A DNA stretch of 64,000 nucleotides, taken from Leucothrix mucor DSM 2157. Lineage in GTDB: Bacteria; Pseudomonadota; Gammaproteobacteria; Thiotrichales; Thiotrichaceae. This document shows, piece after piece, positions 12,182-29,418 of this stretch. The notes below the pieces were generated by a model that was not told the origin of the DNA, ran no database searches, and worked only from the letters and a program-made list of their open reading frames with translations. The first letter of the stretch is position 1, and every line of letters begins with the position of its first letter. The position numbers and the translations under genes are program-made. Where the stretch lies: assembly GCF_000419525.1 (NCBI RefSeq), contig NZ_ATTE01000001.1:186001-250000 (forward strand), given 5' to 3'.

Positions 12182-12236
12182 GACTTTCTCCAAGGGTGAT
12201 AGCAGTGACTGCTTGGGCTAGAATAGTTTTTTTTAA

Positions 12237-12266
12237 TTAACTGTTCAATATAAAATGAGGTACAAT
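12237..12266 (+). promoter_or_regulatory. Likely betA promoter with BetI-like half site
   Basis: TTAACT (12237-12242), an 18-base spacer and TACAAT (12261-12266) lie upstream of betA. The overlapping bases AATTAACTGTTCAAT (12234-12248) form an imperfect inverted repeat whose right arm, GTTCAATATAAA, resembles the arm recalled for BetI operators. The BetI assignment is tentative; no betI gene is in the window. Confidence 0.4.
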
Positions 12267-12306
12267 TTCGACAATTAAAAAGCCAGCCAGTGGAGGCGTG
12301 TGTTAG

Positions 12307-13920
12307 ATGCAAACTAAAGAATATGATTACGTGATTGTGGGTGCTGGTTCGGCAGGTTGTGTCTTGGCCAATCGCCTGACGGAAGATGCGAATGTGTCTG
12401 TGCTGTTATTGGAGTACGGTGGCAGCGACCGCAGTATTTTCATCCAGATGCCGACCGCCTTATCCATCCCGATGAATACCAAAAAATACAACTGGCAGTA
12501 CGAGTCACAGCCTGAGCCTAATTTGGATAATCGCTTAATGCATTGTCCGCGCGGTAAAGTGCTGGGTGGTTCTTCCTCCATTAATGGCATGGTGTTTGTG
12601 CGCGGAAATGCAGGCGACTTTGATGAGTGGGAAGCGCACGGAGCCACTAACTGGGGCTATAAAGATTGCCTGCCGTATTTTAAAAAGATGGAAGATTGGG
12701 CCTTTGGTGCCGATGATTTTCGTGGAACTGGCGGCCCGCTAGCGGTCAATAACGGTAATAATCGCCAAAACCCGCTATACGATACCTTTGTGAAAGCTGG
12801 CCAGCAGGCGGGCTACATGAAAGCCGAAGACTACAACGGTGAAAGTCAGGAAGGCTTTGGCCCGATGCACATGACGGTGAAAAACGGCGTTCGTTGGTCA
12901 ACGGCAAATGCTTATTTGAAGCCTGCCATGAGCCGCCCGAATTTGACGGTAGAAACCCATGCGCTGAGCCGCCGTATTTTGCTGGAAGGCAAAAAAGCCG
13001 TTGGTATTGAATATGAGCAGGGCGGCACGATTAAGCAGGTTAAAGCCAAGCGTGACGTGATTGTAAGTGCAGGGCCGATTGGTTCGCCACAGTTACTACA
13101 AGTCTCTGGCATTGGGCCAGCAGATGTTCTGAAAAAAGCAGGCATTGAAGTAAAACATGATCTGCCTGGTGTGGGTGAAAACCTGCAAGATCATTTGGAG
13201 TTCTATTTCCAGTACAAATGTAAGCAAGCAATTACACTAAATGGCAAGTTGAATCTATTTAGCAAAGCGCTGATTGGTATGCGTTGGATTCTGTTTAAAA
13301 CAGGGCTGGGCGCGACCAATCACTTTGAGTCTTGCGCGTTTATTCGCTCAAATGACAAAGTAGCTTTCCCTGATCTGCAGTACCATTTCCTGCCAGCGGC
13401 CATGCGTTATGATGGTAATGCGGCATTTGATGGTCATGGCTTTCAGGTGCATGTTGGTCATAACAAGCCTTTTAGTAGGGGCTCTGTTCGGGTTAAGTCT
13501 GCTGACTTTAGCGAGAAGCCGGAGATTCAGTTTAACTACCTGCAAACGCCGGAAGATATTGAAGCCTTCCGCCAGTGTGTGCGATTGACTCGTGAAATTA
13601 TTGAGCAACCAGCCTTTGATGAATACCGCGATGGCGAGATTCAGCCGGGTGAAGCGGTGCAGACTGATGAGGAGATTGATGCCTTTGTACGTCAGGCGGT
13701 GGAGAGTGCTTATCATCCATCGTGCAGCTGTAAGATGGGTACAGATGATATGGCTGTGGTTGATCCTGAAACCCGGGTGCGTGGGATTGAAGGGTTACGG
13801 GTTGTGGACTCTTCGATTTTCCCGACGATTCCAAATGGGAATTTGAATGGGCCTACGATTATGTTGGCTGAAAGAGCGGCGGATTTGATTAAGGGTAAGG
13901 GGATGTTGGAAGCGCTATAA
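12307..13920 (+). CDS. betA: Choline dehydrogenase BetA (GMC oxidoreductase)
   Basis: A 537-residue FAD enzyme that oxidises choline to betaine aldehyde. The ADP-binding fold is at the N-terminus ([16 protein letters not shown], residues 10-25), followed by the GMC signature [19 protein letters not shown] and the second signature [15 protein letters not shown]. The C-terminus has [10 protein letters not shown] with the catalytic His and [17 protein letters not shown]. The ribosome site is GGAGG ten bases before the ATG. It lies back to back with betC. No betB aldehyde dehydrogenase is present; BetA of this family can carry out the second oxidation in part, or betB lies elsewhere. Confidence 0.93.
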
Positions 13921-14087: not shown

Positions 14088-15146
14088 TCAATCACGTTTA
14101 CGACGACGCGACTCACGTGGCGCACCATCACCACCCGAAATCGCGCCCTCCATCACACTCATCTCACCTCGATTCTGCGCTTTAGCGCCAACTGAAACCT
14201 CACCCAGCCGCGCTTCAACTTCAGCCACTGTCGGCTTTTCACCCTTAATGTGCTCATCCAGTGCTTCACGCATCGCACGAATATGCTCTGGTGTCGTACC
14301 ACAGCAGCCGCCAATAATCCGAGCACCCGCATCAATTGCCATACGCACATAATCGGCCATGATTTCAGGCGTGCCGTTGTAATGAATCTTACCTTCGACA
14401 TACTCCGGAATACCGCAGTTGGCCTTAGCCACATAGATATTCTCTTCATTGTCCGAAGCGTTGCCCATATTCAAAATAGCAACGACCAGCTCAGAAGCAC
14501 CGACACCGCAGTTAGAGCCACACGCCGTTGGCGGGTGCTCGGAGTGCTCATACAGGTTCACCAAATCAGCCGGTGTAACACCCATCATCGAGCGGCCGTT
14601 AATATCAAAGCTCACGGTGCACACTGTCGGCAGGTCAGTCGTTGCAGCGCCAGCTAAGGCTGCTTGCACTTCTTCCAGTGACGACATGGTTTCAATCCAC
14701 AAAATATCTGCACCACCGGCTGCCAGTGCCTGAGCTTGTTCAGCAAAAGCGGCGGTCGCAGATTCCATGGTCAGTGCGCCCATTGGCTCCATTAGCTCGC
14801 CAGTCGGCCCCATTGAGCCGGCCACTAAAATCTTGCGTTCAGTGGTGGCATCAGCACATTCACGGGCAATGCGTGCGCCTGCTTCATTCAGCTCGGTTAC
14901 GCGGTCTTGCGCATCGTGCAGCTTTAAGCGAAAGGTGGTGCCACCAAAGGTATTGGTTAGCACAATATCAGAGCCTGCTTCGATAAAGCTCACATAATTG
15001 GCCGCAATGCGATCCGGATGATCAACGTTCCACAACTCCGGTGAGTCACCGGTTTGCAGGCCCATCGCGAACAGATTGGTGCCAGTTGCACCATCGGCCA
15101 ATAAATAAGGACGCATTTTTAATAAGTCACGAAGGCAGTTAGTCAT
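14088..15146 (-). CDS. Homocysteine/betaine S-methyltransferase family protein with Arg-rich tail
   Basis: About 352 residues of the cobalamin-independent homocysteine methyltransferase (MetH N-terminal/BHMT) family. The start is LLADGATGTNLFAMGL, and the zinc site is one Cys in SNCGVGA plus the Cys pair in GGCCGTTPEHI (about residues 280-290). Members transfer a methyl group from betaine, S-methylmethionine or methyl-corrinoid to homocysteine. The protein ends APRESRRRKRD, a basic tail not needed by the fold and shared in style with proteins of the neighbouring corrinoid operon, which suggests it belongs to that pathway. ATG at 15146 is taken over an in-frame GTG at 15179. A strong terminator follows. 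Confidence 0.85.
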   Translation of the reverse strand: MTNCLRDLLKMRPYLLADGATGTNLFAMGLQTGDSPELWNVDHPDRIAANYVSFIEAGSDIVLTNTFGGTTFRLKLHDAQDRVTELNEAGARIARECADATTERKILVAGSMGPTGELMEPMGALTMESATAAFAEQAQALAAGGADILWIETMSSLEEVQAALAGAATTDLPTVCTVSFDINGRSMMGVTPADLVNLYEHSEHPPTACGSNCGVGASELVVAILNMGNASDNEENIYVAKANCGIPEYVEGKIHYNGTPEIMADYVRMAIDAGARIIGGCCGTTPEHIRAMREALDEHIKGEKPTVAEVEARLGEVSVGAKAQNRGEMSVMEGAISGGDGAPRESRRRKRD

Positions 15147-15306
15147 ATTCAGATCCTGAAAAATAGTATTTTGCAGCACTTTAGCGGGTTGTCAGCGTGC
15201 TAACAAGGCGCAATTTTTAGAGGTCAGACTGCGTTTTATTTATCACGTGACCCATCATCGCGTTCGGGATACTCTAGGCCGTCGTAAAATTAACCGGGGA
15301 AATAAC

Positions 15307-16041
15307 ATGGCAACACAACGCGTAGACTGGGGCTTATTTCTACAAGGCGCTAGGGATACGTTGCCACTGATTGTCGCGGCGATTCCGTTTGGAATTGTGT
15401 ATGGCGCAATGGCACAGGCGGCGGGCTTAACGCAATGGGAAGCGCTGGGCATGTCCTTATTTGTGTTTGCGGGCTCTTCGCAATTTATTGCCGTCACTTT
15501 GCTGGCCAGTGCAGCCGCCTTTCCAGTGATTGCGATGACGGTGTTTATCGTCAATCTGCGCCACATGTTGTATTCCGCCAGTTTAATGCAAGCGGCCAAG
15601 CAGGTTCCTGCCTTGCTGCGAGTGCCGATGGCCTTTTGGCTGACCGATGAAACCTACGCAGTAGTGGCCAATCGCCTGCGGGCCAAGCAAGACTCCGGCA
15701 CCGGCTTTTACACCTACTACATTGGCTCTGCACTGACGATGTATCTCAACTGGCAGCTGTGTACCTGGATAGGTGTAATGGTTGGCGAGAGCGTGCCAGA
15801 TATGACGCAATGGGGATTGGATATTGCGATGGTGGTTGCCTTTATCGGGATTGTGGTTCCTGCACTGCAACACTTGGCGCATTGGGCTTGTGCAGCAACC
15901 GCTGCCGTGAGTATCTTGCTGACTTATGATTGGCCGCATCAAAGTGGCTTGCTGTTTTCCTCATTGCTGGCCATTGCGGTGGGCATTCTAGTATTAAAAC
16001 GACAACAGGCATGTGAACAGGCGAGGGCAAGTCATGAGTGA
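15307..16041 (+). CDS. azlC: AzlC family branched-chain amino acid exporter, large subunit
   Basis: About 244 residues with some seven to eight membrane segments. AzlC hallmarks are FGIVYGAMAQAAGLTQWEALGMSLFVFAGSSQ, split here as FGIVYGAMA and FVFAGSSQF, followed by NLRHMLYSASL. With AzlD it forms an exporter of branched-chain amino acids or analogues. The ATG at 15307 follows GGGGAAATAAC and is preferred to an upstream GTG at 15247. It overlaps azlD by eight bases. Confidence 0.93.
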   Translation: MATQRVDWGLFLQGARDTLPLIVAAIPFGIVYGAMAQAAGLTQWEALGMSLFVFAGSSQFIAVTLLASAAAFPVIAMTVFIVNLRHMLYSASLMQAAKQVPALLRVPMAFWLTDETYAVVANRLRAKQDSGTGFYTYYIGSALTMYLNWQLCTWIGVMVGESVPDMTQWGLDIAMVVAFIGIVVPALQHLAHWACAATAAVSILLTYDWPHQSGLLFSSLLAIAVGILVLKRQQACEQARASHE

Positions 16042-16351
16042 TTATTGGTGGTTAATTGTTGGGATGACGGCGCTGACATTCTTGCCGCGTTATTTGCCAT
16101 TGGCATTAGCGGGTAAGGTGCATATTCCGCCATTATTGGCGCAGGCGCTGGAATTTGTACCGATTGCCGTATTGACGGCGATTATTGTGCAGGTGAGTTT
16201 GGTGCGGGATGGGAGTGTAATGATCAGCACGGAGAATCCTTATCTGATTGCGTCCGTGCTGGCCTTTTTAACGGCACTGAAAACCCGTCACCTTATGCTG
16301 ACGATTGTCGTCGGACTGGTTACGTTTTCTCTGTGTCGTTTTATCTTATAG
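16034..16351 (+). CDS. azlD: AzlD family branched-chain amino acid exporter, small subunit
   Basis: About 105 residues with three to four membrane helices. The family motif LTFLPRYLPLALAGK is at residues 13-27. It pairs with AzlC to form the exporter. The start overlaps the azlC end by eight bases, indicating coupling, and its 3' end overlaps the end of the convergent DUF3461 gene by six bases. Confidence 0.92.
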   Translation: MSDYWWLIVGMTALTFLPRYLPLALAGKVHIPPLLAQALEFVPIAVLTAIIVQVSLVRDGSVMISTENPYLIASVLAFLTALKTRHLMLTIVVGLVTFSLCRFIL

Positions 16352-16732
16352 CTTGTGTAGCAGGCTACGAATTTCTTCGTGTGCAGATTTAATTTCCTGC
16401 TCGATCTGAGACATGCGCTCAAGGATGTGCTGCTTCTGGTCAACGATAGATCCACGCTTAGCAATTAACTCATCCAGCTCAGAAACTGCTCGGCTCAGAA
16501 ACGGTGAAATCTCATGGATTTCGCGCGTTGGCTGATGGATGTCGCCCGTAGAAACCATCTTAGCAGAACGGCCAAAACGGAATGTTTTGCGGTCCGGCAA
16601 GAAAGAGCCTTTTTGGCGCTCATAAAAAATCTTTAGTACATCGCCATCATTGCCTTCCTGATGTAGCGTGTAGTGTTTAATTTGGTCTGTACGTTTGACG
16701 TCCATTTCCGCCAACGTTGGGTAATCACTCAT
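16346..16732 (-). CDS. DUF3461 family protein
   Basis: A 128-residue protein with the DUF3461 pattern: YPTLAEMDVKRTDQIKHYTL, then QEGNDGDVLKIFYERQKGS and FRFGRSAKMV, EISPFL. A C-terminal coiled coil spans residues about 85-128 (ILERMSQIEQEIKSAHEEIR). The family is confined mainly to Gammaproteobacteria and has no known role. It is transcribed alone, convergent with azlD and overlapping it by six bases. Confidence 0.9.
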   Translation of the reverse strand: MSDYPTLAEMDVKRTDQIKHYTLHQEGNDGDVLKIFYERQKGSFLPDRKTFRFGRSAKMVSTGDIHQPTREIHEISPFLSRAVSELDELIAKRGSIVDQKQHILERMSQIEQEIKSAHEEIRSLLHKL

Positions 16733-16834
16733 GTTTTAGTCCTGATTTGTTTTAGTTAAGTAACAATCTATACCATATTGTAGGTCAAATTTAGAGGCAA
16801 TGTTAGTACTCTACTGCACAAGCGCATACCAAAA

Positions 16835-18832
16835 CTATAGCGGCGCCGCTAAACATTCTGCGGTGATTGTCGCTGAAATCAAGCCCGTATCGCCCTGCAT
16901 ATTTGGAATATCCAAACGCTCAACGTGTATCTCGACTTTCGGGTGTTTAGTTTGCATCGCGGCGGCTTTTTTCAGCGCACTTTGAGTAGCCAGTTCCCGA
17001 GCCTGAGTAATGGCTTCAGCGGGATTAATCACATGAATGGGCTCGCCATCCTGATGTAAATGGTAGCCACCTTGTACCGCTGAACTGATCTCAATAACGG
17101 TGTGTACTTTCACCACCCCAATCGCCGCACCAATGGCATTAGCCACCTCGCTTCCGGTCGGAATAATGGGAGTAATTCCCAATCGCTCTCCAACCGTGCC
17201 GTAAAAAACCTGCGCTGGCCCACCCACGGCCACTAATGGAATAGAAGGTGTCAGCGATAAATTCAGATCACCTAATTGCAAACTACCCTGACAAATACTG
17301 CTAATGATCGGGTCAGTTGGCGCGAAGCTGTGACCGGCTAATCGCTCTAGTAATAAATGGGTACTTTTAGCGACCATGGCATCATAAATTTCCTGCGCAA
17401 AGGCGCGGCATTCCTGATCCATATTGGCATCGTTATAGGTTATTTTTCCGTGGGAACGGCCAACCATCAGGCAGACTAATTCAGCAGCTTCGCGCGACCA
17501 TTGGGACTGCCGGTCGAGCACATGCGCTGCATCGCTGGGGGTAAAGCCACCGACTTGCAGCAGGCCACGGTCCACCAAACGCGTCACCCGATTGCGGTCA
17601 GACACCCGATTCACCAATTTTGACCAGCGCACGGGCTGATCCATAATGAGTGATAAGAACTCGCAGTCCGCTTCGCTAAGATCTTCCGGTAGCGGGTGGC
17701 GGTCATAGCCATCGGGGCGCACTAAAAACATCGTTGCCATGCCAAGGCCCATGCCTTGGCTGAGGCTTTGTTTCATGTCTTTGATCACGGATGGCCAGCG
17801 CGAACCTAGCAGCGCTAATGGCACCACGCGATTAGCCTGCAAGGTAATACGACCACGGTGATCAATTTCAATCGCGCTATCGCCACCTAAGCCAATGGTT
17901 TGCATATCAATGGCTTTTACCATGGTGCGAAAGCCACCAATCATAGAGCCGGCTTCATTGAGGTCTGGCCAGCCGTTTTTAACAATCGCTACATCGGTAG
18001 TGGTGCCGCCAATATCTGAGATAATAAAGTCGCTTTCACCCGATAAGAAATTAGCGCCAATCACGCTGGCGGCCGGGCCGGAGAGAATGGTTTCAATTGG
18101 GCGCTCAATCACTGTTTCAGCGCTGGCAATCGAGCCATCACCTTTTACAATCATTAGTGGGGCGGTAATCGCGTGATTCGCCAAAGCATCACGAACCGCA
18201 TCAACCAGCGCCACAATCAAAGCAATAATACGAGCATTAAAGGCAGCGGTGAGTGCGCGGCGCGGGCCATTTAGCGCTTCGGATAAATCACAAGAAGCCG
18301 TCACCGGACAGCCTGAAATCTCATGGATTAAGGCCTGCGCCCGTCGCTCATGTTCAGGGTTGCGCACAGAATAATGCGAAGCCACGGCATAAGCACCGAC
18401 CTTGCCAGCATTCTCCCCCAGCATGTTACGAATCGCTGCTTCATCCAACATCGTTGCTTCGCTACCATCATAACTATGGCCACCAGCCACCCGAGTGACC
18501 AACGCAGAGGGAATCGCCGACTCCAGATTACTGCGCTCTAACATCACATCATCAAAGCCAATCAGCAATACACCAATGCGCGAGCCTTGGCCTTCCACCA
18601 ATGCATTGGTCGCCAGTGTGGTTGAGAGTGAGACTAGAGAAATAGAGTCTGCTGAGACCTCGTCACTGGCTTGCTGCATTACCTTATCCAGCGCTTCAAT
18701 TACGCCAATGGATAAGTCGCCACGGGTGGTTAGCGCTTTGGCAGAGGCCACCAGTTTACGGCTTTGATTGTCGATAATCACCGCGTCGGTATAAGTGCCG
18801 CCAGTGTCGATTCCGATATTGTAGCTATTCAT
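16835..18832 (-). CDS. HyuA-like hydantoinase/oxoprolinase family ATPase
   Basis: A 665-residue protein of the hydantoinase A/oxoprolinase ASKHA family. The N-terminal phosphate loop is IGIDTGGTYTDAVI, and the second is FIISDIGGTTTDVAIVKNG (about residues 270-290). Stand-alone relatives lacking the HyuB partner occur in corrinoid methyl-transfer clusters, as here, so it may not act on hydantoins. No HyuB gene is present. It is the last gene of the minus-strand operon, eight bases after the activator gene. One inference is that it is a second ATP-dependent chaperone or activator of the corrinoid protein. Substrate unknown. Confidence 0.8.
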   Translation of the reverse strand: MNSYNIGIDTGGTYTDAVIIDNQSRKLVASAKALTTRGDLSIGVIEALDKVMQQASDEVSADSISLVSLSTTLATNALVEGQGSRIGVLLIGFDDVMLERSNLESAIPSALVTRVAGGHSYDGSEATMLDEAAIRNMLGENAGKVGAYAVASHYSVRNPEHERRAQALIHEISGCPVTASCDLSEALNGPRRALTAAFNARIIALIVALVDAVRDALANHAITAPLMIVKGDGSIASAETVIERPIETILSGPAASVIGANFLSGESDFIISDIGGTTTDVAIVKNGWPDLNEAGSMIGGFRTMVKAIDMQTIGLGGDSAIEIDHRGRITLQANRVVPLALLGSRWPSVIKDMKQSLSQGMGLGMATMFLVRPDGYDRHPLPEDLSEADCEFLSLIMDQPVRWSKLVNRVSDRNRVTRLVDRGLLQVGGFTPSDAAHVLDRQSQWSREAAELVCLMVGRSHGKITYNDANMDQECRAFAQEIYDAMVAKSTHLLLERLAGHSFAPTDPIISSICQGSLQLGDLNLSLTPSIPLVAVGGPAQVFYGTVGERLGITPIIPTGSEVANAIGAAIGVVKVHTVIEISSAVQGGYHLHQDGEPIHVINPAEAITQARELATQSALKKAAAMQTKHPKVEIHVERLDIPNMQGDTGLISATITAECLAAPL

Positions 18833-18840
18833 GCTGCGAC

Positions 18841-20874
18841 TTAACCTCTGCGACGACGGCGTCGGCGGCCATCACCATCTTCATTGCGATTGCCCCCGGC
18901 TTTTTCGGGCGGCTTAGCGACCACGGAAAACAAATTCGGGAAAGGGTCAGTGTCATGCGGGAATGCCATCGCACCCACAAAATACTCCTGAAACTTAGTT
19001 TCTACGGCGGTTTCAATTTTCTCAATACTGCGAACCACGCGCTCAATAATATAGCGGGATTCTTTATTCAACAGGGCAATGCGCGCACCAGTTCCGGCAG
19101 CATTTCCCGCCGACGCCACTTGCTCCAATGGGCAGTCTGGAATCAGTCCCAATACCATCGCATGTTTTACATCAATATGACTTCCGAAGGCTCCGGCTAA
19201 TCGAATGCGCTCGATTTGGGTGACGCCTAATTTATCCATTAATAAGCGCACACCAGCATACAGCGCGGCTTTACCCAACTGAATCTGGCGTACATCATTT
19301 TGCGAAACTGAAATCACCCGATCAGGGCGGCCCGAACCATCGTCATAAAGCACATAAGACCAAGTGCGCTCATTAGGAATAATCCGTGAACTGACTGCCG
19401 CTAAATCGCCATCCACCACGCCATCTTTGCTGATAATGCCCGCCAGATACATTTCGGCGATGACTTCAATAATGCCGGAGCCACAAATGCCATTCACGCC
19501 AATCTTCTTAATTTCGTCCTGAAAGCCATCTTCATTTGACCAAAGTTCGGAGCCAATCACGCGAAAGCGGGGCTCTTTGGTAATAGGGTCAATACGAACT
19601 CGCTCAATCGCGCCGGGTGCCGCACGTTGGCCGCAGCTGATTTGTGCGCCTTCAAAGGCAGGGCCGGTGGGGCTTGAGCAGGCCATTAGGCGATCTTTAT
19701 TACCGAGAACGATTTCTGCATTGGTGCCCACATCCACCAGCAAGGTAATTTCATCTTGTAGCTGTGGCTCTTCAGAAAGCACCATACCCGCCGCATCGGC
19801 ACCCACATGCCCGGCGATGCAGGGCAGAATATAGATCATGCCACCGGCATTAATTTTGATATCCATGTCTTTGGCGCGGGTGCGAATGGCTTCATCGGTC
19901 GCCAGTGCAAAGGGCGCGCCACCGAGTTCTACCGGATCAATTCCCAGCAGAATGTGATGCATAATGGGATTGGCCACCATCACCAACTCCATGACTTCAT
20001 CCAGCGCAATATCCGCGTTTTCAACAATCTCAGCAATCAGCTTATTTAAACCGTCGCGAATGGCGTGGGTCATTTCACCCGCACCTTCAGGATGCATCAT
20101 CACATAGGAGACGCGGCTCATGAGGTCTTCACCAAAGCGAATTTGGGGATTCATCAAACTACCGGACTGTATAACCTCGCCACTGTGCAAATCACACAAA
20201 TGTGCTGCTACGGTGGTAGAGCCCACATCAATGGCGAGACCATAGGCTTTCTCTTTAAAGCCCGGCCACAGTGAGACAATTCGGCGACCGTCATATACCG
20301 CGGCGGTGACTTTCCATTCGCCAGAGCGCAGTACCGGTTGCAGGGTTTGCAGCAGGCTTAAGTCATATTCCAGATCGACCAAACCCCATTCGCGTTCCAG
20401 CGCATCGCAAACCCGTTGCATATCACCGCTTGGCTTATGCATGTCGGCTTCTTCTACGTCGATGTAATGAAGTTGAATGGTGCTGTCGAGGGTGATATCG
20501 CGCAGGTCCGCATCTTTGCGTACGACCTGTTTGTGTACCTGACTTTCCGGCGGCACATCAATGATGACATCGCCTTCCAGCAAGGTGTGGCAACTTAAGC
20601 GGCGGTTTTCTGCCAGCACTTTGCGCTTAGCCGAGTACTTTTTCTCAGCTTCAGACAAAGGGTTCAGATGTGAAATGCTGGAGACGATTTGGTGCTTCTG
20701 AAAGTTGCCTTCCATGCACTCGACCTGACAGCGGCCGCAAATCCCACGACCACCACAGACAGAATCAATATCAACGCCCAAGCTCTGAGCGATTTGTAAT
20801 AACGGTGTGCCTAAGGGGAATTTCCCACGACGCCCAGAGGGCATAAACACAACTTTGGCGGTTTTGTTAGTCAA
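18841..20874 (-). CDS. Ferredoxin-ASKHA reductive activator of corrinoid protein (RACo/RamA-like)
   Basis: A 677-residue protein. The N-terminus is a plant-type [2Fe-2S] ferredoxin with Cys40, Cys46, Cys49 and Cys95. A linker follows, then a DUF4445/ASKHA ATPase domain with YGLAIDVGSTTVAAHL (about residue 213) and LLVDVGTNAEIVLGN. RACo-type proteins reduce accidentally oxidised Co(II) corrinoid to the active Co(I) state using ATP. The end, GDG plus RRRRRRRG, is a striking arginine run outside the enzymatic fold. It sits between the methyltransferase and HyuA-like genes in the same operon. Confidence 0.9.
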   Translation of the reverse strand: MTNKTAKVVFMPSGRRGKFPLGTPLLQIAQSLGVDIDSVCGGRGICGRCQVECMEGNFQKHQIVSSISHLNPLSEAEKKYSAKRKVLAENRRLSCHTLLEGDVIIDVPPESQVHKQVVRKDADLRDITLDSTIQLHYIDVEEADMHKPSGDMQRVCDALEREWGLVDLEYDLSLLQTLQPVLRSGEWKVTAAVYDGRRIVSLWPGFKEKAYGLAIDVGSTTVAAHLCDLHSGEVIQSGSLMNPQIRFGEDLMSRVSYVMMHPEGAGEMTHAIRDGLNKLIAEIVENADIALDEVMELVMVANPIMHHILLGIDPVELGGAPFALATDEAIRTRAKDMDIKINAGGMIYILPCIAGHVGADAAGMVLSEEPQLQDEITLLVDVGTNAEIVLGNKDRLMACSSPTGPAFEGAQISCGQRAAPGAIERVRIDPITKEPRFRVIGSELWSNEDGFQDEIKKIGVNGICGSGIIEVIAEMYLAGIISKDGVVDGDLAAVSSRIIPNERTWSYVLYDDGSGRPDRVISVSQNDVRQIQLGKAALYAGVRLLMDKLGVTQIERIRLAGAFGSHIDVKHAMVLGLIPDCPLEQVASAGNAAGTGARIALLNKESRYIIERVVRSIEKIETAVETKFQEYFVGAMAFPHDTDPFPNLFSVVAKPPEKAGGNRNEDGDGRRRRRRRG

Positions 20875-20900
20875 TGGGATAGCTCCTCAAAAAATTATTG

Positions 20901-21800
20901 TTATGAACGGCGACGACGGTTGCCAGAGGTACGAGTACCGCGCGCGCCTTCTGCTGGTGCCTGACGGTATTTGCGAATCCAGTTGGCACAATCCGGATCA
21001 TTACCCATCATCACATCGCCACCGAGTACTGCCTGAATGACTTCAGGATGCAGCGGGCTGGTAATCGCGGAGGTCATGCCCGCACCCATTGCCATGCTCA
21101 AAAAGGCACTGTTAACGCCGTTGCGATTTGGGAGGCCGAAGCTTACATTAGAAGCCCCGCAAGTGGTATTCACTTTTAGCTCATTACGTAGGCGTGAAAC
21201 CAGCGCCATGACTTGCTTTCCGGCGGTATTGATCGCACCAATTGGCATCACTAAGGGGTCAACCACAACACGGTCGTGGGAGATGCCATAATCCGCTGCA
21301 CGCTCAACGATTTTCTTCGCCACTTCAAATCGCACATTCGGATCTTCGCTTATGCCGGTCTCATCGTTTGAGATGGCCACTACCGAGGCATTGTATTTTG
21401 CGACCAGAGGCAATACGCGATCTAGTGACTCATCTTCACCGGTTACCGAGTTCACCAGCGCACGGCCTTGATACACCGCCAAACCCGCCTCCAGCGCATC
21501 AATAATCGAAGAGTCAATACACAGAGGTGTGTCAGTCAGCGACTGCACTAATTGAATCACTTCTGCGAGAATGCGTGGTTCATCCGCCAGTGGAATCCCC
21601 GCATTAATATCCAACATGTGCGCACCGGCGGCAATTTGTGCCAAGGCATCTGCTTCCACACGGCTGTAATCCCCGACTTTCATTTCTTCCGCGAGGATTT
21701 TACGACCGGTCGGATTAATGCGCTCACCAATGATCACAAAGGGATGATCGAAACCGATTTTTACTTCTTTAGTTGGCGATGTGATGATGGTGGTTGTCAT
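20901..21800 (-). CDS. Methyltetrahydrofolate:corrinoid methyltransferase (pterin-binding, MtgA/AcsE-like)
   Basis: A 299-residue TIM-barrel pterin-binding enzyme. Family features are VIIGERINPTGRK at the N-terminus, AGAHMLDINAGIPLADE for the pterin-binding Asp/Asn, and CIDSS and NTTCGASNVSFGLPNR. In methylamine and betaine pathways this second methyltransferase moves the methyl group between the corrinoid protein and tetrahydrofolate. The protein ends GARGTRTSGNRRRRS, a basic tail beyond the usual fold. It lies 26 bases before the activator gene and 49 after metF. Confidence 0.9.
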   Translation of the reverse strand: MTTTIITSPTKEVKIGFDHPFVIIGERINPTGRKILAEEMKVGDYSRVEADALAQIAAGAHMLDINAGIPLADEPRILAEVIQLVQSLTDTPLCIDSSIIDALEAGLAVYQGRALVNSVTGEDESLDRVLPLVAKYNASVVAISNDETGISEDPNVRFEVAKKIVERAADYGISHDRVVVDPLVMPIGAINTAGKQVMALVSRLRNELKVNTTCGASNVSFGLPNRNGVNSAFLSMAMGAGMTSAITSPLHPEVIQAVLGGDVMMGNDPDCANWIRKYRQAPAEGARGTRTSGNRRRRS

Positions 21801-21849
21801 GATGATGTCTCTCCAAGGGGCCGTCTATTGCGGCTAAATAAATGAGGGT

Positions 21850-22857
21850 TTATGCCTGAGTAATTGCCGCTTCGCGTCCGGGGAACCAAGGGATGCGATC
21901 ACCGAGTACACCCGAGTTCTGCACGATTTCAGCCACGGCATATTCCATGCGATAGGCCATAATGTGTACGCCATGTACGCCGGGCATTTCTTTAATGGCA
22001 TTGACCATGTCGGTACAAATATTGATGCCTTCCTGTTTTTGGTTTTCAGCACCAGCCAGTCGTTTGATAATGGCATCCGGAATATGCACGCCGGCAACAT
22101 TGCTACGAATCCACTCCGCCGCGCGAGCAGAAGCTAGCGGGCCGACACCGGGTAAAATAAAGACTTTTTCGTGCAGTCCCATATCCACTACCTGATCCAT
22201 ATAATTGCGCATCATTTCAATATCAAAGCAGTATTGGGTTTGCACAAACTGAGCGCCGGCCGCTACTTTTTTAGCAAGGCGGTGAGGGCGGTAGTCAAAG
22301 GGTGGTGCGAAAGGATTAGCCGCTGCACCCAGAAAGACTTCCGGCGCTTTGCTGAGCTTGCGGCCACTTAAAAAGCGACCCTCATCACGCATGCCGCGCA
22401 CCATGGATAAGGCTGACATGCAGTCCAAATCAAATACGGGTTTTGCTTCAGGGTGATCGCCAGATTGCACGCCATCGCCACTCAAACACATGATGTTCGC
22501 CACGCCCATCGCCGAAGCGCCAAGTACATCACCCTGAATCGCAATGCGGTTACGATCGCGGCAAGAGACTTGCATCACCATTGAGTAACCGTTGTGAGCG
22601 AGTAGGGCACACATGGCCACGCTAGACATATGGCAGTTAGCGCCTGAGCCGTCGGTGGCATTGATTGCATCGACATAGCCATCAAATACTTCGGCGCGCT
22701 CATACACTTCATTGGGGTCGGCAGAGTCCGGTGGGGCTATTTCTGCGGTGACGGCAAAGTGTCCCGCGCGCAATACCCGCTCAAAGCGGCCGGGTGAGGT
22801 GTGTCCGGGTAGTACCTTAAGGTTTTCACCGGGATTGGTTTCGTCATCAAAAAACAT
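21850..22857 (-). CDS. metF: Methylenetetrahydrofolate reductase, MetF
   Basis: A 335-residue flavoprotein of the MTHFR family, interconverting methyl- and methylene-tetrahydrofolate. Markers are FAVTAEIAPPDSADP, DAINATDGSGANCHMS, IMCLSGDGVQSGDHPEA for the flavin region, and AAGAQFVQTQYCFD. It is followed in the operon by methyltransferase 2, and preceded by the Cys-rich MetV-like gene. In a demethylation pathway it would run towards methylene-H4folate. It has no C-terminal regulatory domain. Confidence 0.93.
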   Translation of the reverse strand: MFFDDETNPGENLKVLPGHTSPGRFERVLRAGHFAVTAEIAPPDSADPNEVYERAEVFDGYVDAINATDGSGANCHMSSVAMCALLAHNGYSMVMQVSCRDRNRIAIQGDVLGASAMGVANIMCLSGDGVQSGDHPEAKPVFDLDCMSALSMVRGMRDEGRFLSGRKLSKAPEVFLGAAANPFAPPFDYRPHRLAKKVAAGAQFVQTQYCFDIEMMRNYMDQVVDMGLHEKVFILPGVGPLASARAAEWIRSNVAGVHIPDAIIKRLAGAENQKQEGINICTDMVNAIKEMPGVHGVHIMAYRMEYAVAEIVQNSGVLGDRIPWFPGREAAITQA

Positions 22858-22876
22858 GGCGTCGTCTCGTTAGGAC

Positions 22877-23344
22877 TCAGGAATTAGAGCGGGCTTGCTG
22901 ACGTTTCTGGCGTACTTCACGTAGCCAGGCAGAGGTGCCTTTTTTGCGGGCATCCAGTGCAGGCTGAATAATCTGAATCGCCTGCTCCGTTTGCTTCATA
23001 TTTTTGGTGCCTTCCCAAGCCACCACCCACACGCAATCCATATCGGGTTTGACTTCACATTTGCCATTAGGGCGCACGCCGCCACAAGGTCCATTGCGAA
23101 TGGTTTTCGGGCAATTCATGGGGCAGGACATACCCGTGGAACCCAGTGTGCACTGGCCGCAGGATTGTGAATCAAACAGCAAACCTTTGGTGGCTTTTTC
23201 AACCGCCATAAACGGTTTTTCCAGTCGCTCATAGCCAATTTTTTCCAGCAAGGGAGCGGCTTTTAACAGACTGTTTTCAACACCACTGTAAATATGATGC
23301 AGGGTGTTTGAGTGCTTGGCAGACCAGCGGCGAAGTCGGTACAT
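22877..23344 (-). CDS. MetV-like methylenetetrahydrofolate reductase C-terminal domain protein
   Basis: A 155-residue protein with the MTHFR_C cysteine-rich domain: Cys62, Cys65, Cys74, Cys78, Cys87 and further Cys near residues 96-103, in the patterns CGQC, MSCPMNCPK and GPCGGV. Stand-alone forms are the MetV partners of MetF in acetogens, and here metF lies 19 bases downstream, so a MetF-MetV complex is likely. The start ATG shares its A with the stop of the preceding gene. The last 20 residues are rather basic (REVRQKRQQARSNS). Confidence 0.88.
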   Translation of the reverse strand: MYRLRRWSAKHSNTLHHIYSGVENSLLKAAPLLEKIGYERLEKPFMAVEKATKGLLFDSQSCGQCTLGSTGMSCPMNCPKTIRNGPCGGVRPNGKCEVKPDMDCVWVVAWEGTKNMKQTEQAIQIIQPALDARKKGTSAWLREVRQKRQQARSNS

Positions 23345-23655
23345 CAGGCGCTCTCCTCGTCTAGCCCGCCAGCGGCGACCAGACTTTTTAAGCGCTCATC
23401 GGGGTAGGCCGTCTCCAGTAACTCTGCTTCGCTAGCGGCTTGTGCCTGAATGTCATCCGCATTATCGCAAGGCTCGCTGACGCGTCTCCACTCCTCAACA
23501 TAGTCATCCGTTCCGGCTTTTCCAGAGCGCATGGCGGCATCATCAATGGCGACTTGGAAGCGTTGGCTTAGCACCATCTTTCCCTTATTGCGGCCACGTT
23601 TGATAATTACCTGCGAGGGGATATCCCTCCAGTAAACGATAATTTTATCAGGCAT
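23344..23655 (-). CDS. Virulence-factor family small protein (PF13769-like)
   Basis: About 103 residues. The N-terminus DKIIVYWRDIPSQVIIKRGR matches the small family named virulence factor in databases; despite the name, its genes co-occur with corrinoid methyl-transfer operons and no function is known. Conserved features are the WRDIP segment, RFQVAIDDAAMRSG and YVEEWRR. ATG at 23655 with GAGGG upstream is chosen over a longer frame from 23742, which would overlap the DUF1638 gene. It is translationally coupled to the MetV-like gene (TGATG). Confidence 0.8.
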   Translation of the reverse strand: MPDKIIVYWRDIPSQVIIKRGRNKGKMVLSQRFQVAIDDAAMRSGKAGTDDYVEEWRRVSEPCDNADDIQAQAASEAELLETAYPDERLKSLVAAGGLDEESA

Positions 23656-23662
23656 GTTGCTG

Positions 23663-24286
23663 CTACCCTCTGGATTGGAAGTTGATAACTTGGGTCTGAA
23701 GCCCGCTTTCCAGCAAACCATAGCCGGTATGTTGGTGTTCAAAATCGAGGCCGAGATATTCGGCGGCTTGCTGCGCTGCTAGCAGCAATGTTGGATTGTG
23801 CGTTTGTGAGAGGTAAACCACTCGGGTGTAATGACCAAACATCATCGGCAGCAGCTCCGGATGCTGGTCTAATTTCAGGCCTTTCACGATCAGGCGCTGA
23901 AAGTGCTGGGCCAAAAAATCAGTTAAATAAAACGAGCCGATCGCCTGCTCGGCTAACTCATCAAACTGTTCAAGTCCGGCAAAAAAGGCATAGCAATGAG
24001 CGCCGGGCAGTCGTTCAATCGGATGGGCTTCGCTGGAGAACTCGGCAATCACCTTATCAATATCACCACCACTGCCACAGTCGGCATAGGCGATAAAAAT
24101 ATTCTGGTATTGCGCATGAAGCTCCTCAAGCTTTTCCCGCAACTTTCCGGCAATGCGCTCCGGTCGGTTGTGTAACTCCGCATCCAAACATTGAATGCGG
24201 AGGTGTTGCCAGTCATTCAGCACTTTAAGCTGTTGAATTTCTCTGGCCAGTGCGCCGCACGCGATAACAAGTGACGGCGCAGTCAT
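23663..24286 (-). CDS. DUF1638 family protein
   Basis: About 207 residues with the DUF1638 features: LVIACGALAREI at the N-terminus, YADCGSGGDID, RLPGAHCYAFFAGL, and a C-terminal Tyr/Gly-rich segment. Conserved Cys and His residues suggest metal or corrinoid contact, but the family has no proven role. DUF1638 genes are recurrent neighbours of MttB-family methyltransferases. The ATG at 24286 lies four bases after the corrinoid protein stop; a longer frame from 24394 would overlap that gene. Confidence 0.85.
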   Translation of the reverse strand: MTAPSLVIACGALAREIQQLKVLNDWQHLRIQCLDAELHNRPERIAGKLREKLEELHAQYQNIFIAYADCGSGGDIDKVIAEFSSEAHPIERLPGAHCYAFFAGLEQFDELAEQAIGSFYLTDFLAQHFQRLIVKGLKLDQHPELLPMMFGHYTRVVYLSQTHNPTLLLAAQQAAEYLGLDFEHQHTGYGLLESGLQTQVINFQSRG

Positions 24287-24290
24287 GGCG

Positions 24291-24989
24291 TCAGGCTGCG
24301 TATTTTTCCGCGACCAGCTCAACGGCCATACTGGCGGCAGTGGCTGCATCACGGCAATAAGCGGTTGCGCCAACGGCCAAACCGAACTCTTCATTCAGTG
24401 GCGCGCCACCCACTAAGATGATGTAGTCATCACGAATACCGCGCTCGACCATCGCATCCACAACCACTTTCATATAAGGCATGGTAGTCGTCAGCAGGGC
24501 AGACATGCCCAGTACATCCGGCTTGTGCTCTTCTAGTGCTGCAAAGTACTCATCAACCGAGTTATTAATGCCGATATCGATGACTTCAAAGCCAGCGCCT
24601 TCCAGCATCATTCCGACCAGGTTTTTACCGATGTCATGAATGTCGCCTTTCACGGTGCCAATCACCATTTTACCAATTGGCTTCGCGCCGGTTTCAGCCA
24701 GTAGCGGGCGCAGAATGGACATGCCACCTTTCATTGCATTAGCCGCTAGTAGTACTTCCGGTACAAACAAAATACCATCGCGGAAGTCGATACCGACAAT
24801 CGTCATGCCGCCAACCAGTGCTTCGGCCAGTACTTTCTCAGGAGACCAACCACGTTCCAGCAGGATGTTAGTGCCTTCAATAATTTCTTCTTTCATACCG
24901 TCGTACAAATCGTCGTGCATTTGCTCAACTAACTCGTCATCGGCAAGCTCGGATAAGATGATCTCGTCATCATCGTATTCATCAGTCAT
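24291..24989 (-). CDS. Corrinoid (cobalamin-binding) methyl-carrier protein
   Basis: About 232 residues, with a helical cap domain (residues about 30-100) and a Rossmann B12-binding domain. The signature is GDIHDIGKN, with His118 as expected lower-axial cobalt ligand, and VLVGGAP and GLAVGATAYC further on. It would carry the methyl group between the MttB-family enzyme and methyltransferase 2. The first 30 residues are unusual, with 14 Asp/Glu and no Lys/Arg. ATG at 24989 with AGAGGT upstream. It lies 73 bases after the MttB-family gene, the first gene of the operon. Confidence 0.95.
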   Translation of the reverse strand: MTDEYDDDEIILSELADDELVEQMHDDLYDGMKEEIIEGTNILLERGWSPEKVLAEALVGGMTIVGIDFRDGILFVPEVLLAANAMKGGMSILRPLLAETGAKPIGKMVIGTVKGDIHDIGKNLVGMMLEGAGFEVIDIGINNSVDEYFAALEEHKPDVLGMSALLTTTMPYMKVVVDAMVERGIRDDYIILVGGAPLNEEFGLAVGATAYCRDAATAASMAVELVAEKYAA

Positions 24990-25062
24990 CAAAAGTACCT
25001 CTTAAAACAGTGTTATTGTTGTGAAGCGGTTGGCTCAGGGCCAAACCGGCAGCATCCTGCGG

Positions 25063-26604
25063 TTAATACTCTTTATCCGGGAAAGCGTTTTTACGGCGAG
25101 CGATAAAGTCCAGTAGGGCTTCGTCAATCGCTGGGTCCATGGCCGGTGGCTCGTACTCCGCCAGCATGGTTTTGAATATTTTATTGGCGCGTTGAGCGGC
25201 ATCTAACTCGCCATCTTCCGACCACTGCTCGAAACTGTTGTTATCAGCAATATTGGAGCGGTAAAACGCGGTTTCGAAATTGGCTTGAGTGTGCGCTGCG
25301 CCAAGGAAATGATTGCCGGGGCCGACTTCGCGCAAAGCATCCATCGCCTGACCATTTTCACTCATATCGACGCCTTTAAGTAGCACCGACATCATATTGG
25401 CCTGATCAACATCCATAATGAATTTTTCATAGCTCATCACCAAGCCGCCTTCCAGCCAGCCTGCGGTATGCAGCATGAAGTTCACGCCTGCCAGTGCCGC
25501 TGTTTGCAGGGTATTCGCCGCTTCATAAGCTGCTTGCGCATCAGGTACTTTAGAGGCACATAAGCCACCACCACTGCGGAACGGGACGCCTAAACGACGC
25601 GCCAGTGCAGCGGCAACATACAGAATTAAACTTGGCTCTGGCGTACCAAAGGTTGGCGCACCGGATTGCATAGAAACGGCTGCAGCAAAGGTACCAAATA
25701 CCACTGGCGCACCCGGATTAACCAGCTGCACAAAGGCCATACCCGCTAAGGCTTCTGCCAGAATCTGCGTGGCAGTACCGGCTACTGTGACGGGTGACAT
25801 AGCACCGGCCAGAATAAAGGGCGAAATGACCGTTGCTTGATTATGACGCGCATATACCTTGGCAGCACCGAGCATGGTGTCATCAAAAGTCATTGGCGAG
25901 TTGGCATTAATCAGGCTGGCAGTGACAGCGTTGTTATCAACGAACTCATCACCAAACACGATTTTGCACATGTCGACCGTGTCTTGCGCGCGCTCTGGTG
26001 CAGTGACCGAGCCCATAAACGGCTTGTCGCTGTATTTGATATGACTGTAGATCATATCGAAGTGGCGCTTGTTAACCGGTAAATCAACCGGCTCACAGAT
26101 GGTGCCGCCGGAGTGATGCATACCCGGTGACATGTAGGCCAGTTTTACAAAATTACGGAAGTCTTCGATGGTGGCATAACGACGACCTTTATCCAGGTCG
26201 CGAACAAATGGCGAGCCATAAGCTGGAACTAGTACGGTGCGTTTGCCGCCGATAATGGTGGTGTTTTCAGGGTTGCGGGCGTGTTGGGTAAATTCTTTTG
26301 GCGCGCTGGCCTGAATAATGGCGCGGCACATGCCACGAGGGAAGCGGACGAGTTCGCCCTTAACATCAGCACCGGCATCTTTAAGGATTTGCAGGGCTTC
26401 AGGATCATCGCGGAACTCAATACCGATTTCTTCCAGTACGGTATCCGCATTGTATTCTATCTGTGCGAGTCCAGACTCATCCAGCACTTCATAATAAGGA
26501 ATGTTACGCTCGATGTAAGCTGACCGATGGGTCTGGGAAATCTTGCGCGCTGCGCGCTTTCCACTACGACCGCCACCGCCGCCTCTGGTTCGTCTTTCAC
26601 TCAT
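25063..26604 (-). CDS. MttB-family (trimethylamine/glycine betaine type) corrinoid methyltransferase, no pyrrolysine
   Basis: About 513 residues of the trimethylamine methyltransferase MttB family. The TIM-barrel core has GTICEPVDLPVNKRH, FGTFAAAVSMQSGAPTFGTP and LGVPFRSGGGLC. The reading frame has no in-frame amber codon, so this is a non-pyrrolysine homologue like the glycine-betaine, proline-betaine, carnitine and butyrobetaine enzymes. The N-terminal extension MSERRTRGGGGGRSGKRAAR is basic and glycine-rich. ATG at 26604 with GTGGAG is preferred to one at 26625. It heads the operon. The methylated substrate is unknown; glycine betaine fits the neighbours best. Confidence 0.92.
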   Translation of the reverse strand: MSERRTRGGGGGRSGKRAARKISQTHRSAYIERNIPYYEVLDESGLAQIEYNADTVLEEIGIEFRDDPEALQILKDAGADVKGELVRFPRGMCRAIIQASAPKEFTQHARNPENTTIIGGKRTVLVPAYGSPFVRDLDKGRRYATIEDFRNFVKLAYMSPGMHHSGGTICEPVDLPVNKRHFDMIYSHIKYSDKPFMGSVTAPERAQDTVDMCKIVFGDEFVDNNAVTASLINANSPMTFDDTMLGAAKVYARHNQATVISPFILAGAMSPVTVAGTATQILAEALAGMAFVQLVNPGAPVVFGTFAAAVSMQSGAPTFGTPEPSLILYVAAALARRLGVPFRSGGGLCASKVPDAQAAYEAANTLQTAALAGVNFMLHTAGWLEGGLVMSYEKFIMDVDQANMMSVLLKGVDMSENGQAMDALREVGPGNHFLGAAHTQANFETAFYRSNIADNNSFEQWSEDGELDAAQRANKIFKTMLAEYEPPAMDPAIDEALLDFIARRKNAFPDKEY

Positions 26605-26850: not shown

Positions 26851-29418
26851 TTAAGAACGTGGTTTGATGTTTTCAGGGTCGTACAGCGGGCCGTAACCAA
26901 CTGCATCTAACGTGACTTTATAGATCTCACCCTGATATTCCATATCCAATACGCGACCAACCTGGCAATATTCATAAGGCAGGAATGCCAGTGCAATATT
27001 TTTTCCAATGCTTGGGCCAAAGGCGATACTGGTGGTGTATGAGCGACGACCTTTAGCGTCGATCAGTGTTTCGCCCGTTTCAGGGTCCAAAATCGGGCAA
27101 GCGCCAAATGGGAAGCGTGCAACGCCATGCGAGTCGACATTATCATTCACGGTCAGCGTACAGAGGTAGGCAGGCTGGTGCTCACGCTCACGAATCTTCA
27201 GGTAGGCTTCTTTACCAATAAAGTCAGCGGCTTTAACCACTTTACGTGCTAAGTCGACTTCTAACAGGTTGTACTCAGTCAGTAAGTCAGCGTTTTGTAG
27301 GCGTAAGCTCTTTTCCAAACGACGACTGTTGGCGTAAGTTTCAACACCCACTGGCAACACGCCTTCTGCAAACAAAGCATCCCAAACGGCTAAGCCATCT
27401 TCCAGTTTGAAGTGCAGCTCCCAGCCTTGCTCACCGACATACGAGATGCGGAAAGCGGTGACTTTTTTGCCTGCGATTTCCAGCGTACGAAGCCCCGCAA
27501 ATGGGAAGTTCTCATTGCTGATATCGTCTGGGTTGGCGATCAATTTAGACAGGGTGGTGCGCGCATTCGGTCCCCAAAGGCCTAAGCAACCAAACTCGGT
27601 TGATAAATCCTCGACCAGTACTTGATCATAGCCGTAGTCTTCGGCATTGCGCTTCATCCAAACGAAGTCACGGTTACCCGCATCACCACCATCAATCACG
27701 CGGAAGTGGTTTTCACCTAAACGCAGTACGGTTAAATCGGCACGGACACCGGCGACTTTATCTAGGAAGTGCGTGTAAACCCCTTTGCCAATCGGCGTAT
27801 CGCCAGCCACTTTGGCTACGCAAAGGAATTCCATTAGATCAGCTGCTCCTTCGCCGCTCACGTCATAGATCGCAAAGTGGCTGAGGTTGACCATGCCCAC
27901 ATTCTCAGACATTTCCAAATGCTCAGCATTGGAGACGCGCCAGAAGTGACGGTTTTCCCATTCGTTTTCACGAACCGGGACTTTATCACCCCATTTTTCT
28001 AAGAGGTGCTCATTGGCGGCATAGCCGTGTGCACGCTCCCAACCAGCAGCTTCCATAAAGTAACCGCCCAGCTCTTTTTCACGCTCCCAGAATGGGCTCT
28101 TGTAGTGATCACGCGCCGCGGTGTATGGCTCGCGGTTATGCACTGGCGGGTTGTAGATTTTGAAAGCCGATTCATAGCAACGGTCGGCGATGTATTGCTC
28201 TTCACATTGGAATGGGTAATAGCGTGCCACGTCGATACGCGCGTGGTCGATATGGGTGTAACCGTCAGTCATCCAGTCAGCCAGAATTTTACCGGTACCT
28301 GGTCCATCTTTGACCCAAACGGATTCGGCATACCACAGGCCACGCACATTGGCAGACTCACCAATGGATGGGCCACCATCGGCAGTCACTTGTAATAGGC
28401 CGTTGAATGAGTATTTCTCATCGTAGCCCAGCTCGCCCAAAATCGGCGTCAGCTCAATGGCTCGCTCTAATGGCTCCATCACTTCTTCGATATCTAAATC
28501 GCGCTGTGAAGGAGACAGGCGGGCTTCCTGCTTTTCTAAAATGTCGCGAGGGTGGCACATACGAGGCGCTTTTTCTTCGTAGTAGCCCCACTCAATCTGG
28601 CCACCTTCAGCGGTTTTTGGGTCTCCGGTATCACGCAAGTAAGCGGAGTTACCTTGGTCGCGTAGCAGTGGATAACCGATGTCTTTGCCCGTGCCTGCAA
28701 ACTCTTCAAAAGGCTTGAAGAAGGTTAGTGGGTGATCAACCGGCATGATGGGTAAATCTTCACCCGCCATTTCAGCGATCAAACGGCCCCAAAGGCCAGC
28801 ACAGACAACCACGTAATCGGCTTCGATATAACCGCGTTCGGTTTCAACGCCTTTAATGCGACCGTCTTCGATTTTCAGGCCAGTACAGGAGGTGTTAGCA
28901 AAGGCTTGTAGCTTGCCGGTTTCAACGCCCATTTCGACCAATTCGCCCGCAACGGTTTGAGAGCGAGGGACAACCAAACCTGCATCCGGGTCCCATAAGG
29001 CACCTTGAATCATATCTTCTTCAAGTAGTGGGAATTTTGCTTTGGCTTCGGCAGTTGAGATCATTTCAACGCGGTTGCCTAAGGCTTTACCAGACGTCAC
29101 TCGGCGCTTGAGTTCAAGCATGCGCTCATCATCGCCAACACGAGCGACTTCAAGGCCTCCGACACGGGCATAGTGGCCCATCTTGTCAAAGAAGTCGATG
29201 CTGTATTGGGTGGTGAACATGGTCATTTGATCGTGCATCGTGTTGTAAACGAAATCAGATGCATGTGCGGTCGAACCGATATCAGTAGGGATCGCGGACT
29301 TATCAATGCCGACGATATCATCCCAGCCACGCTCGATAAGATGGTGTGCAACGGATGACCCGACAATACCACCCAAACCGATGATGACTACTTTTGCTTT
29401 AGCAGGGAACTTTGCCAT
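26851..29418 (-). CDS. Dimethylglycine/sarcosine dehydrogenase-like FAD flavoprotein with folate-binding GcvT domain
   Basis: An 855-residue two-domain enzyme. The N-terminal half is a DAO-type FAD domain with VVIIGLGGIVGSSVAHHLIERG and DIGSTAHASDFV, whose His is the candidate for covalent flavin attachment in dimethylglycine dehydrogenases. The C-terminal half is a GcvT/folate-binding domain (about residues 430-850) with YVGEQGWELHF. The family oxidatively demethylates dimethylglycine or sarcosine and passes the carbon to folate. It is the only gene on its transcript, with its own promoter and terminator, and lies upstream of the MttB operon. Exact substrate is inferred from context. Confidence 0.87.
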   Translation of the reverse strand: MAKFPAKAKVVIIGLGGIVGSSVAHHLIERGWDDIVGIDKSAIPTDIGSTAHASDFVYNTMHDQMTMFTTQYSIDFFDKMGHYARVGGLEVARVGDDERMLELKRRVTSGKALGNRVEMISTAEAKAKFPLLEEDMIQGALWDPDAGLVVPRSQTVAGELVEMGVETGKLQAFANTSCTGLKIEDGRIKGVETERGYIEADYVVVCAGLWGRLIAEMAGEDLPIMPVDHPLTFFKPFEEFAGTGKDIGYPLLRDQGNSAYLRDTGDPKTAEGGQIEWGYYEEKAPRMCHPRDILEKQEARLSPSQRDLDIEEVMEPLERAIELTPILGELGYDEKYSFNGLLQVTADGGPSIGESANVRGLWYAESVWVKDGPGTGKILADWMTDGYTHIDHARIDVARYYPFQCEEQYIADRCYESAFKIYNPPVHNREPYTAARDHYKSPFWEREKELGGYFMEAAGWERAHGYAANEHLLEKWGDKVPVRENEWENRHFWRVSNAEHLEMSENVGMVNLSHFAIYDVSGEGAADLMEFLCVAKVAGDTPIGKGVYTHFLDKVAGVRADLTVLRLGENHFRVIDGGDAGNRDFVWMKRNAEDYGYDQVLVEDLSTEFGCLGLWGPNARTTLSKLIANPDDISNENFPFAGLRTLEIAGKKVTAFRISYVGEQGWELHFKLEDGLAVWDALFAEGVLPVGVETYANSRRLEKSLRLQNADLLTEYNLLEVDLARKVVKAADFIGKEAYLKIREREHQPAYLCTLTVNDNVDSHGVARFPFGACPILDPETGETLIDAKGRRSYTTSIAFGPSIGKNIALAFLPYEYCQVGRVLDMEYQGEIYKVTLDAVGYGPLYDPENIKPRS

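Follow-up and report, generated by a model that had tools for sequence, protein, structure and literature searches.

How can a split corrinoid system bring a single carrier to methyl donors, to acceptors and to an activator when it has no covalent tether like that of MetH? This question is raised by a locus of Leucothrix mucor DSM 2157, located between positions 14,088 and 26,604 of a window of 64,000 nucleotides (NCBI RefSeq assembly GCF_000419525.1, contig NZ_ATTE01000001.1, positions 186,001 to 250,000; positions below are counted from the first letter of this window). The locus encodes an aerobic, split, cobalamin-dependent methyl-transfer system made of MtgB-, MtgC- and MtgD-type proteins, an activator and an MtgE-type homocysteine methyltransferase. 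An Arg-rich end is present on every enzyme that should gain access to the corrinoid of the carrier but on none of the proteins encoded beside these enzymes, and the carrier itself bears a conserved acidic arm. As judged from the sequences, the Arg-rich ends are rather probably interchangeable electrostatic tags that recruit clients to one shared carrier and replace the covalent tether of MetH.

The charged ends belong to five genes, all on the minus strand. The corrinoid carrier (MtgC-type; 24291 to 24989; Pfam B12-binding and B12-binding_2) starts with an acidic arm (residues 1-30; 24900 to 24989) containing 14 Asp/Glu and no Lys/Arg. The count is taken from the ATG at 24989, which is preceded by an in-frame TTG. 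The MttB-family methyltransferase (MtgB-type; 25063 to 26604; PF06253, 777 bits) is basic over its first 21 residues (26542 to 26604). This end, MSERRTRGGGGGRSGKR, is read from the second ATG, at 26604; were the in-frame ATG before it (26625) the start, the protein would be seven residues longer. The three remaining ends are C-terminal. They comprise the last 19 residues (20904 to 20960) of the methyltetrahydrofolate:corrinoid methyltransferase (MT2, MtgD-type; 20901 to 21800; Pterin_bind, PRK07535 above cut-off), Arg-rich and predicted to be disordered; the last 18 residues (18844 to 18897), also Arg-rich, of the ferredoxin-ASKHA reductive activator (RamA/RACo-type; 18841 to 20874; RACo_C_ter, Raco_middle, RACo_linker and Fer2); and the last 12 residues (14091 to 14126), rich in Arg and Lys, of the BHMT-type homocysteine methyltransferase (MtgE-type; 14088 to 15179; S-methyl_trans, PRK07534 at 480 bits for a cut-off of 338). 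An earlier note on this DNA had described the five ends, together with the lack of such tails in MetF, the HyuA-like protein and the DUF1638 protein. All of this was confirmed, the C-terminal ends of MT2, the activator and the BHMT-type protein being exactly as described.

Such ends are rare in the genome. If a tail is defined as a stretch of 10 residues, within the final 25, that contains at least five Arg, the window yields 3 tailed genes out of 44, and these are exactly the activator, the BHMT-type protein and MT2. The same rule selects a single gene out of 283 sampled in twenty 20-kb stretches (400 kb) of the same genome. The chance that three randomly placed Arg-tailed genes among 44 would all fall within the four partner enzymes is 3e-4. 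At least ten acidic residues with at most one basic residue in the first 30 were found in none of the 283 sampled and none of the 44 window genes, the carrier not being among the latter as the overlap filter kept the DUF1638 frame instead. A basic N-terminal end like that of the MttB-family enzyme is less rare (3/283 sampled genes).

The ends were compared in 40 genome stretches and in 80 named loci, the best 80 of 580, attributed by their titles to Gamma- and Alphaproteobacteria and Acidimicrobiia. Hits at a contig edge or of low identity were removed before tails were counted, namely five and one of 63 for MT2, three and two of 58 for the activator and none of 33 for BHMT. By the rule, an Arg-rich C-terminal end is found in 57/57 MT2 orthologues (56/56 without duplicates), in 51/53 activators (50/52 without duplicates; 53/53 if at least four Arg are asked for) and in 33/33 BHMT orthologues (33/33 without duplicates). 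The control families together give 1/218 (MetF 0/34, MetV 0/35, PF13769 0/65, DUF1638 1/77, HyuA 0/7) and other neighbouring genes 23/1145; no recurrent family was seen by eye among these 23, several of which resemble spurious frames. As for the removed hits of low identity, one MT2 (27%) and one activator (32%), both in locus L100, are tailless, and the other activator (L081, 42%) has its tail. Arg is kept in the tails while residue order and length drift. Loci of Azoarcus and Sinorhizobium meliloti show the same pattern, with a thinner tail on S. meliloti MtgD (a maximum of four Arg in ten).

The N-terminal ends behave similarly. The carrier end was scored in 91 hits out of 94, leaving aside two without the anchor motif and a 35% relative in L100. 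It is acidic in 91/91 orthologues, with 7-15 acidic residues in 20-33 and at most one Lys/Arg in 89 of them. The MttB end, scored in 82 of 86 hits of L061-L180 (three are edge-cut and one has no usable start), has a net charge of at least +4 in 80/82, that is, in 58/60 close homologues (at least 60%) and in 22/22 more distant ones; the exceptions are L126, apparently damaged in assembly, and L119, at +3. Thus, the acidic arm and the Arg tails are conserved together across the compared orthologues. No close relative was found to have lost the tails while keeping the acidic stretch: in MtgC-bearing loci, all scored MT2, activator and BHMT proteins are tailed at a threshold of at least four Arg.

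Where do these ends lie with respect to the folds? The earlier note had placed them outside, and this holds for the tail of MT2, in which the mean predicted local distance difference test score (pLDDT) falls to 61 for residues 281-290 and to 43 for residues 291-299. It does not hold for the carrier, whose acidic stretch lies mostly on the folded cap domain in the AlphaFold2 model. In this model, built with 45 sequences, residues 1-7 have a pLDDT below 50, residues 11-20 reach a mean of 96, and residues 17-29 form the first of the four cap helices. Leu12, Leu15, Leu20 and Gln23 are invariant in 45/45 aligned carriers. The confidence profile and the invariant residues therefore argue that, as modelled, the acidic element is a defined arm of the cap domain, of which only the tip is loose. 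Structural comparison of the carrier model gave nothing informative.

Considering this arrangement, the Arg-rich ends would bind the acidic arm as weak, interchangeable docking tags. One carrier would thus serve many clients in trans, and docking through tags would stand in for the covalent linkers that join modules of the same kinds in MetH. More speculatively, since the arm is located on the cap, binding of a tail may also help to move the cap off the corrin. In its most general form, the proposal would be that any enzyme joins the clients of the single MtgC once it acquires an Arg-rich end, and that the tag, by gripping the arm, also helps to open the cap for each partner. To this extended version we give somewhat less than even chances. 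A generic tag would explain why many MttB homologues share one carrier per genome. Indeed, each of 25 genomes has one carrier of at least 65% identity, and 23 of them have from 1 to 21 PF06253 matches, the high counts being inflated by fragments. L. mucor itself has three PF06253 proteins with basic N-terminal ends for one carrier at this threshold. In another genome (G287), a second corrinoid protein, 42% identical and without an acidic start, adjoins an MttB homologue that has no basic end.

The fate of the BHMT tail in genomes devoid of the carrier bears directly on this proposal. A search of 398 genomes of the phylum found BHMT orthologues (E ≤1e-40) in 44, of which 41 also have MtgC and 3 lack it. 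The tail occurs in 41/41 BHMT proteins with MtgC versus 0/3 without (Fisher P 7.6e-5, descent ignored), the three genomes without MtgC being of high completeness. On the BHMT tree, two of the genomes concerned (G711 and G756) form a sister pair, and the co-loss is therefore counted as two events; in G756, the BHMT gene is decaying and contains two stops. In the family f223 (256 genomes, probably Rhodobacteraceae), 22 genomes have no MtgC-grade match and 10 of these have BHMT, that is, G711, G756 and eight more. MtgC-less genomes were defined by a completeness of at least 98%, a cut chosen after seeing the data; judging their status by a missing activator was rejected as circular. So defined, the set has 11 members (ten of f223 and G762), with no activator, one MttB (in G850) and three BHMT proteins, all tailless. 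Free-standing MetH-type homocysteine modules showed no Arg tail (0/10, one more being edge-cut). The keeping of tails with MtgC and the missing BHMT tail without it thus support the idea that the tails serve the carrier. To this extent, the suggestion of the earlier note that the tails dock each enzyme to the carrier, offered there beside gathering in a condensate or on a membrane surface, is partly supported; the docking itself is what we infer.

Several observations weigh against docking tags. The co-loss rests on three genomes and two events. In the eight further genomes of f223 with BHMT but no MtgC-grade match, the seven readable BHMT proteins keep the tail, that of G775 being edge-cut. 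These assemblies are 71-96% complete and also hold activator and/or MttB genes, and in our judgement the tailed BHMT proteins are found there without MtgC because the carrier gene is unassembled rather than truly lost. In the same vein, G897 (97%), G981 (96%) and G917 (86%) have no MtgC match yet possess activators and MttB genes. An orphan MttB orthologue (L383, 59%; G850:C1:325000-344900) keeps part of its basic end in a genome 99% complete, where no MtgC-grade carrier, activator or BHMT match is found; its N-terminal end is eroded, with five basic and four acidic residues. Two distant MttB homologues, L281 (G287:C37) and L282 (G382:C30), have no basic end, their sequences beginning close to the fold, and no corrinoid gene was found near them within the 6 kb taken. 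The charges of the carrier and of the tails covary weakly (Spearman 0.27, 0.21 and 0.32; P 0.05, 0.13 and 0.07; descent ignored). DUF1638, implicated in reactivation in the available part of PMC5764234, has no tail. Arg tails could also bind other polyanions. Finally, purified Phaeobacter Bmt yields methionine from betaine or dimethylsulfoniopropionate (DMSP) without added cobalamin partners, according to the accessible part of PMC12366255. The BHMT-type protein might then act alone as a betaine/DMSP:homocysteine methyltransferase with a tail unrelated to the carrier, and the L. mucor genome also encodes a MetH-length protein. We nevertheless hold this very improbable: Phaeobacter homocysteine-methyltransferase mutants resemble the mutants of the carrier and of the pterin module (PMC5764234, in its available part), and the BHMT tail follows the presence of MtgC. 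The earlier note had implied that this carrier also serves the homocysteine-methyltransferase homologue. The genetics of Phaeobacter and Ruegeria (available portions of PMC5764234 and PMC12478193) speak for this and the in vitro activity of Bmt against it; a dual role of the protein is possible.

Other explanations concern the tails as a whole. Arg-rich tails and acidic carrier might form a multivalent co-condensate, a kind of metabolic body, instead of docking one to one. The tails are indeed rich in Arg and Gly, variable in order and opposite in charge to their shared partner, and that of MT2 is predicted to be disordered. On the other hand, their length is no more than about 10-20 residues, and most of the acidic partner, which has four invariant residues, is modelled as folded. 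A defined docking site would fit this better, and a condensate therefore appears unlikely. Slightly less credit still may be given to the idea that the tails bind another polyanion, such as nucleic acid, polyphosphate or a membrane surface, thereby collecting the enzymes, the acidic arm having some other function. Affinity for polyanions is a general property of Arg-rich ends. However, only enzymes that should contact the corrinoid bear tails, whereas MetF, MetV, PF13769 and DUF1638 do not; moreover, the BHMT tail disappears along with the carrier, even though the cell still has nucleic acid and membrane. The variable order and length of the tails might also be taken to mean that solubility was what selection favoured, or that they have no partner and simply drift as low-complexity ends. 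Of all the explanations considered, this one is the least probable, as the composition is common to the ends of four unrelated folds, is not shared by five neighbouring families and recurs only once in the genome sample. Two further candidates were rejected. A constraint from gene overlap or regulation was discarded as the source of the Arg codons since the BHMT gene, which adjoins an oppositely oriented AzlC gene, lies apart from the main run and has the same kind of tail. Binding of folate polyglutamates was set aside because the families of the activator, of MttB and of the BHMT-type protein are not known to bind folate.

If the Arg-rich ends are address tags, clients of MtgC among uncharacterised MttB-family enzymes could be predicted from a sequence signature. 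Partner choice would become testable by moving a dozen residues, and the tag would be portable for the building of methyl-transfer cascades.

The other genes of the locus, also on the minus strand, complete the picture. Downstream of the carrier gene are found the genes of the DUF1638 protein (23663 to 24394), of a PF13769 protein (23344 to 23742), of a MetV-like protein (PF12225; 22877 to 23344) and of MetF (21850 to 22857), all devoid of an Arg tail by the rule, MetF serving as an internal control. Between 23344 and 24989, the corrinoid, DUF1638 and PF13769 genes have overlapping open frames; judging by homology, the true starts of the DUF1638 and PF13769 genes probably lie beyond their first start codon. 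A HyuA-like ASKHA protein without an Arg tail (16835 to 18832), possibly a second activator, is encoded directly 3′ of the activator; only six distinct sequences of it occur among the compared loci. On both sides of the system (10664-13917 and 26854-29418) lie a choline-sulfatase-type gene, a GMC oxidoreductase, which we guess to be a choline dehydrogenase, and an oxidase with flavin adenine dinucleotide and GCV_T folate domains resembling dimethylglycine dehydrogenase. These genes are consistent with a route from choline-sulfate to glycine betaine and dimethylglycine, so that glycine betaine is the likely substrate of the system.

In domain content and gene set, the locus corresponds to the aerobic MtgBCDE/RamA methyl-transfer system (Mausz 2025; Price 2018), also called split methionine synthase, described in Ruegeria and Phaeobacter (PMC12478193, PMC5764234). 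As in Ruegeria pomeroyi and Phaeobacter inhibens, an MttB-family enzyme, a corrinoid protein, a pterin methyltransferase, a homocysteine methyltransferase, a RamA-like activator, DUF1638 and a MetF paralogue are present; here, choline/betaine genes flank this shared set. The PF06253, PF00809 and PF02574 methyltransferases are separate proteins, as is the carrier, a frame of 233 residues with PF02607 and PF02310, and the RamA-like activator and DUF1638 are both encoded adjacent to the operon-like run of the carrier gene. The best NCBIfam match of the carrier is MtgC, at 189 bits; it stays under the curated cut-offs of the anaerobic MtgC models NF047996 and NF047995 (189 vs 370 and 157 vs 310 bits). 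Pairwise identity to roseobacter and rhizobial carriers is 73-80%. According to the available portions of the published reports, genetics in relatives assign MtgC/D/E-type proteins and the activator to one function (PMC5764234, PMC12478193), Ruegeria mutants lose growth on glycine betaine, mtgC or mtgD mutants also lose methionine prototrophy, and the pathway is widely expressed in the ocean (PMC12478193). The words "tail" and "arginine" are absent from the main text of PMC12478193, as are "tail", "arginine-rich" and "acidic" from PMC5764234 as available, and no description of the tails was found in the literature searched, the scope of which left most subscription papers and supplements outside. 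As the tails also occur in the loci of Ruegeria/Phaeobacter-type bacteria, they would be an unreported feature of an already known system rather than the mark of another one.

The anaerobic MtgABC, MttBC and MtaBC systems follow the same catalytic plan, with a substrate methyltransferase, a corrinoid protein, a second methyltransferase and an activator. Among solved relatives, the aligned core is preceded by little or no sequence in 9yce and 2qne (glycine betaine methyltransferase) and in 7xcn and 1y80 (carriers), and it is followed by at most three residues in 3zyy (activator), 1f6y and 2yci (MT2); 4yyc, a close relative of the MttB-family enzyme studied here, has a basic N-terminal end. An N-terminal extension that aids partner binding has a precedent in MtaC, though as a different solution from charged ends: its extra N-terminal domain sits in a groove of MtaB (PMC9842639, available part). 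In Acetoanaerobium and Gemmatirosa outgroups, carriers have no acidic start and activators no tails. In a haloarchaeal outgroup, the carrier is acidic and the activator tailless; because haloarchaeal proteins are acidic in general, this acidic start says little. MetH gathers homocysteine, folate and B12 modules, as well as reactivation, around one corrinoid, as does the present system, but its modules are covalently tethered, whereas in L. mucor each is a protein of its own with a charged end. In carrier-protein megasynthases, short charged terminal docking elements route the carrier to its partners, mostly as cognate pairs. In the system of L. mucor, one carrier would instead be addressed by one generic tag present on four types of enzymes.

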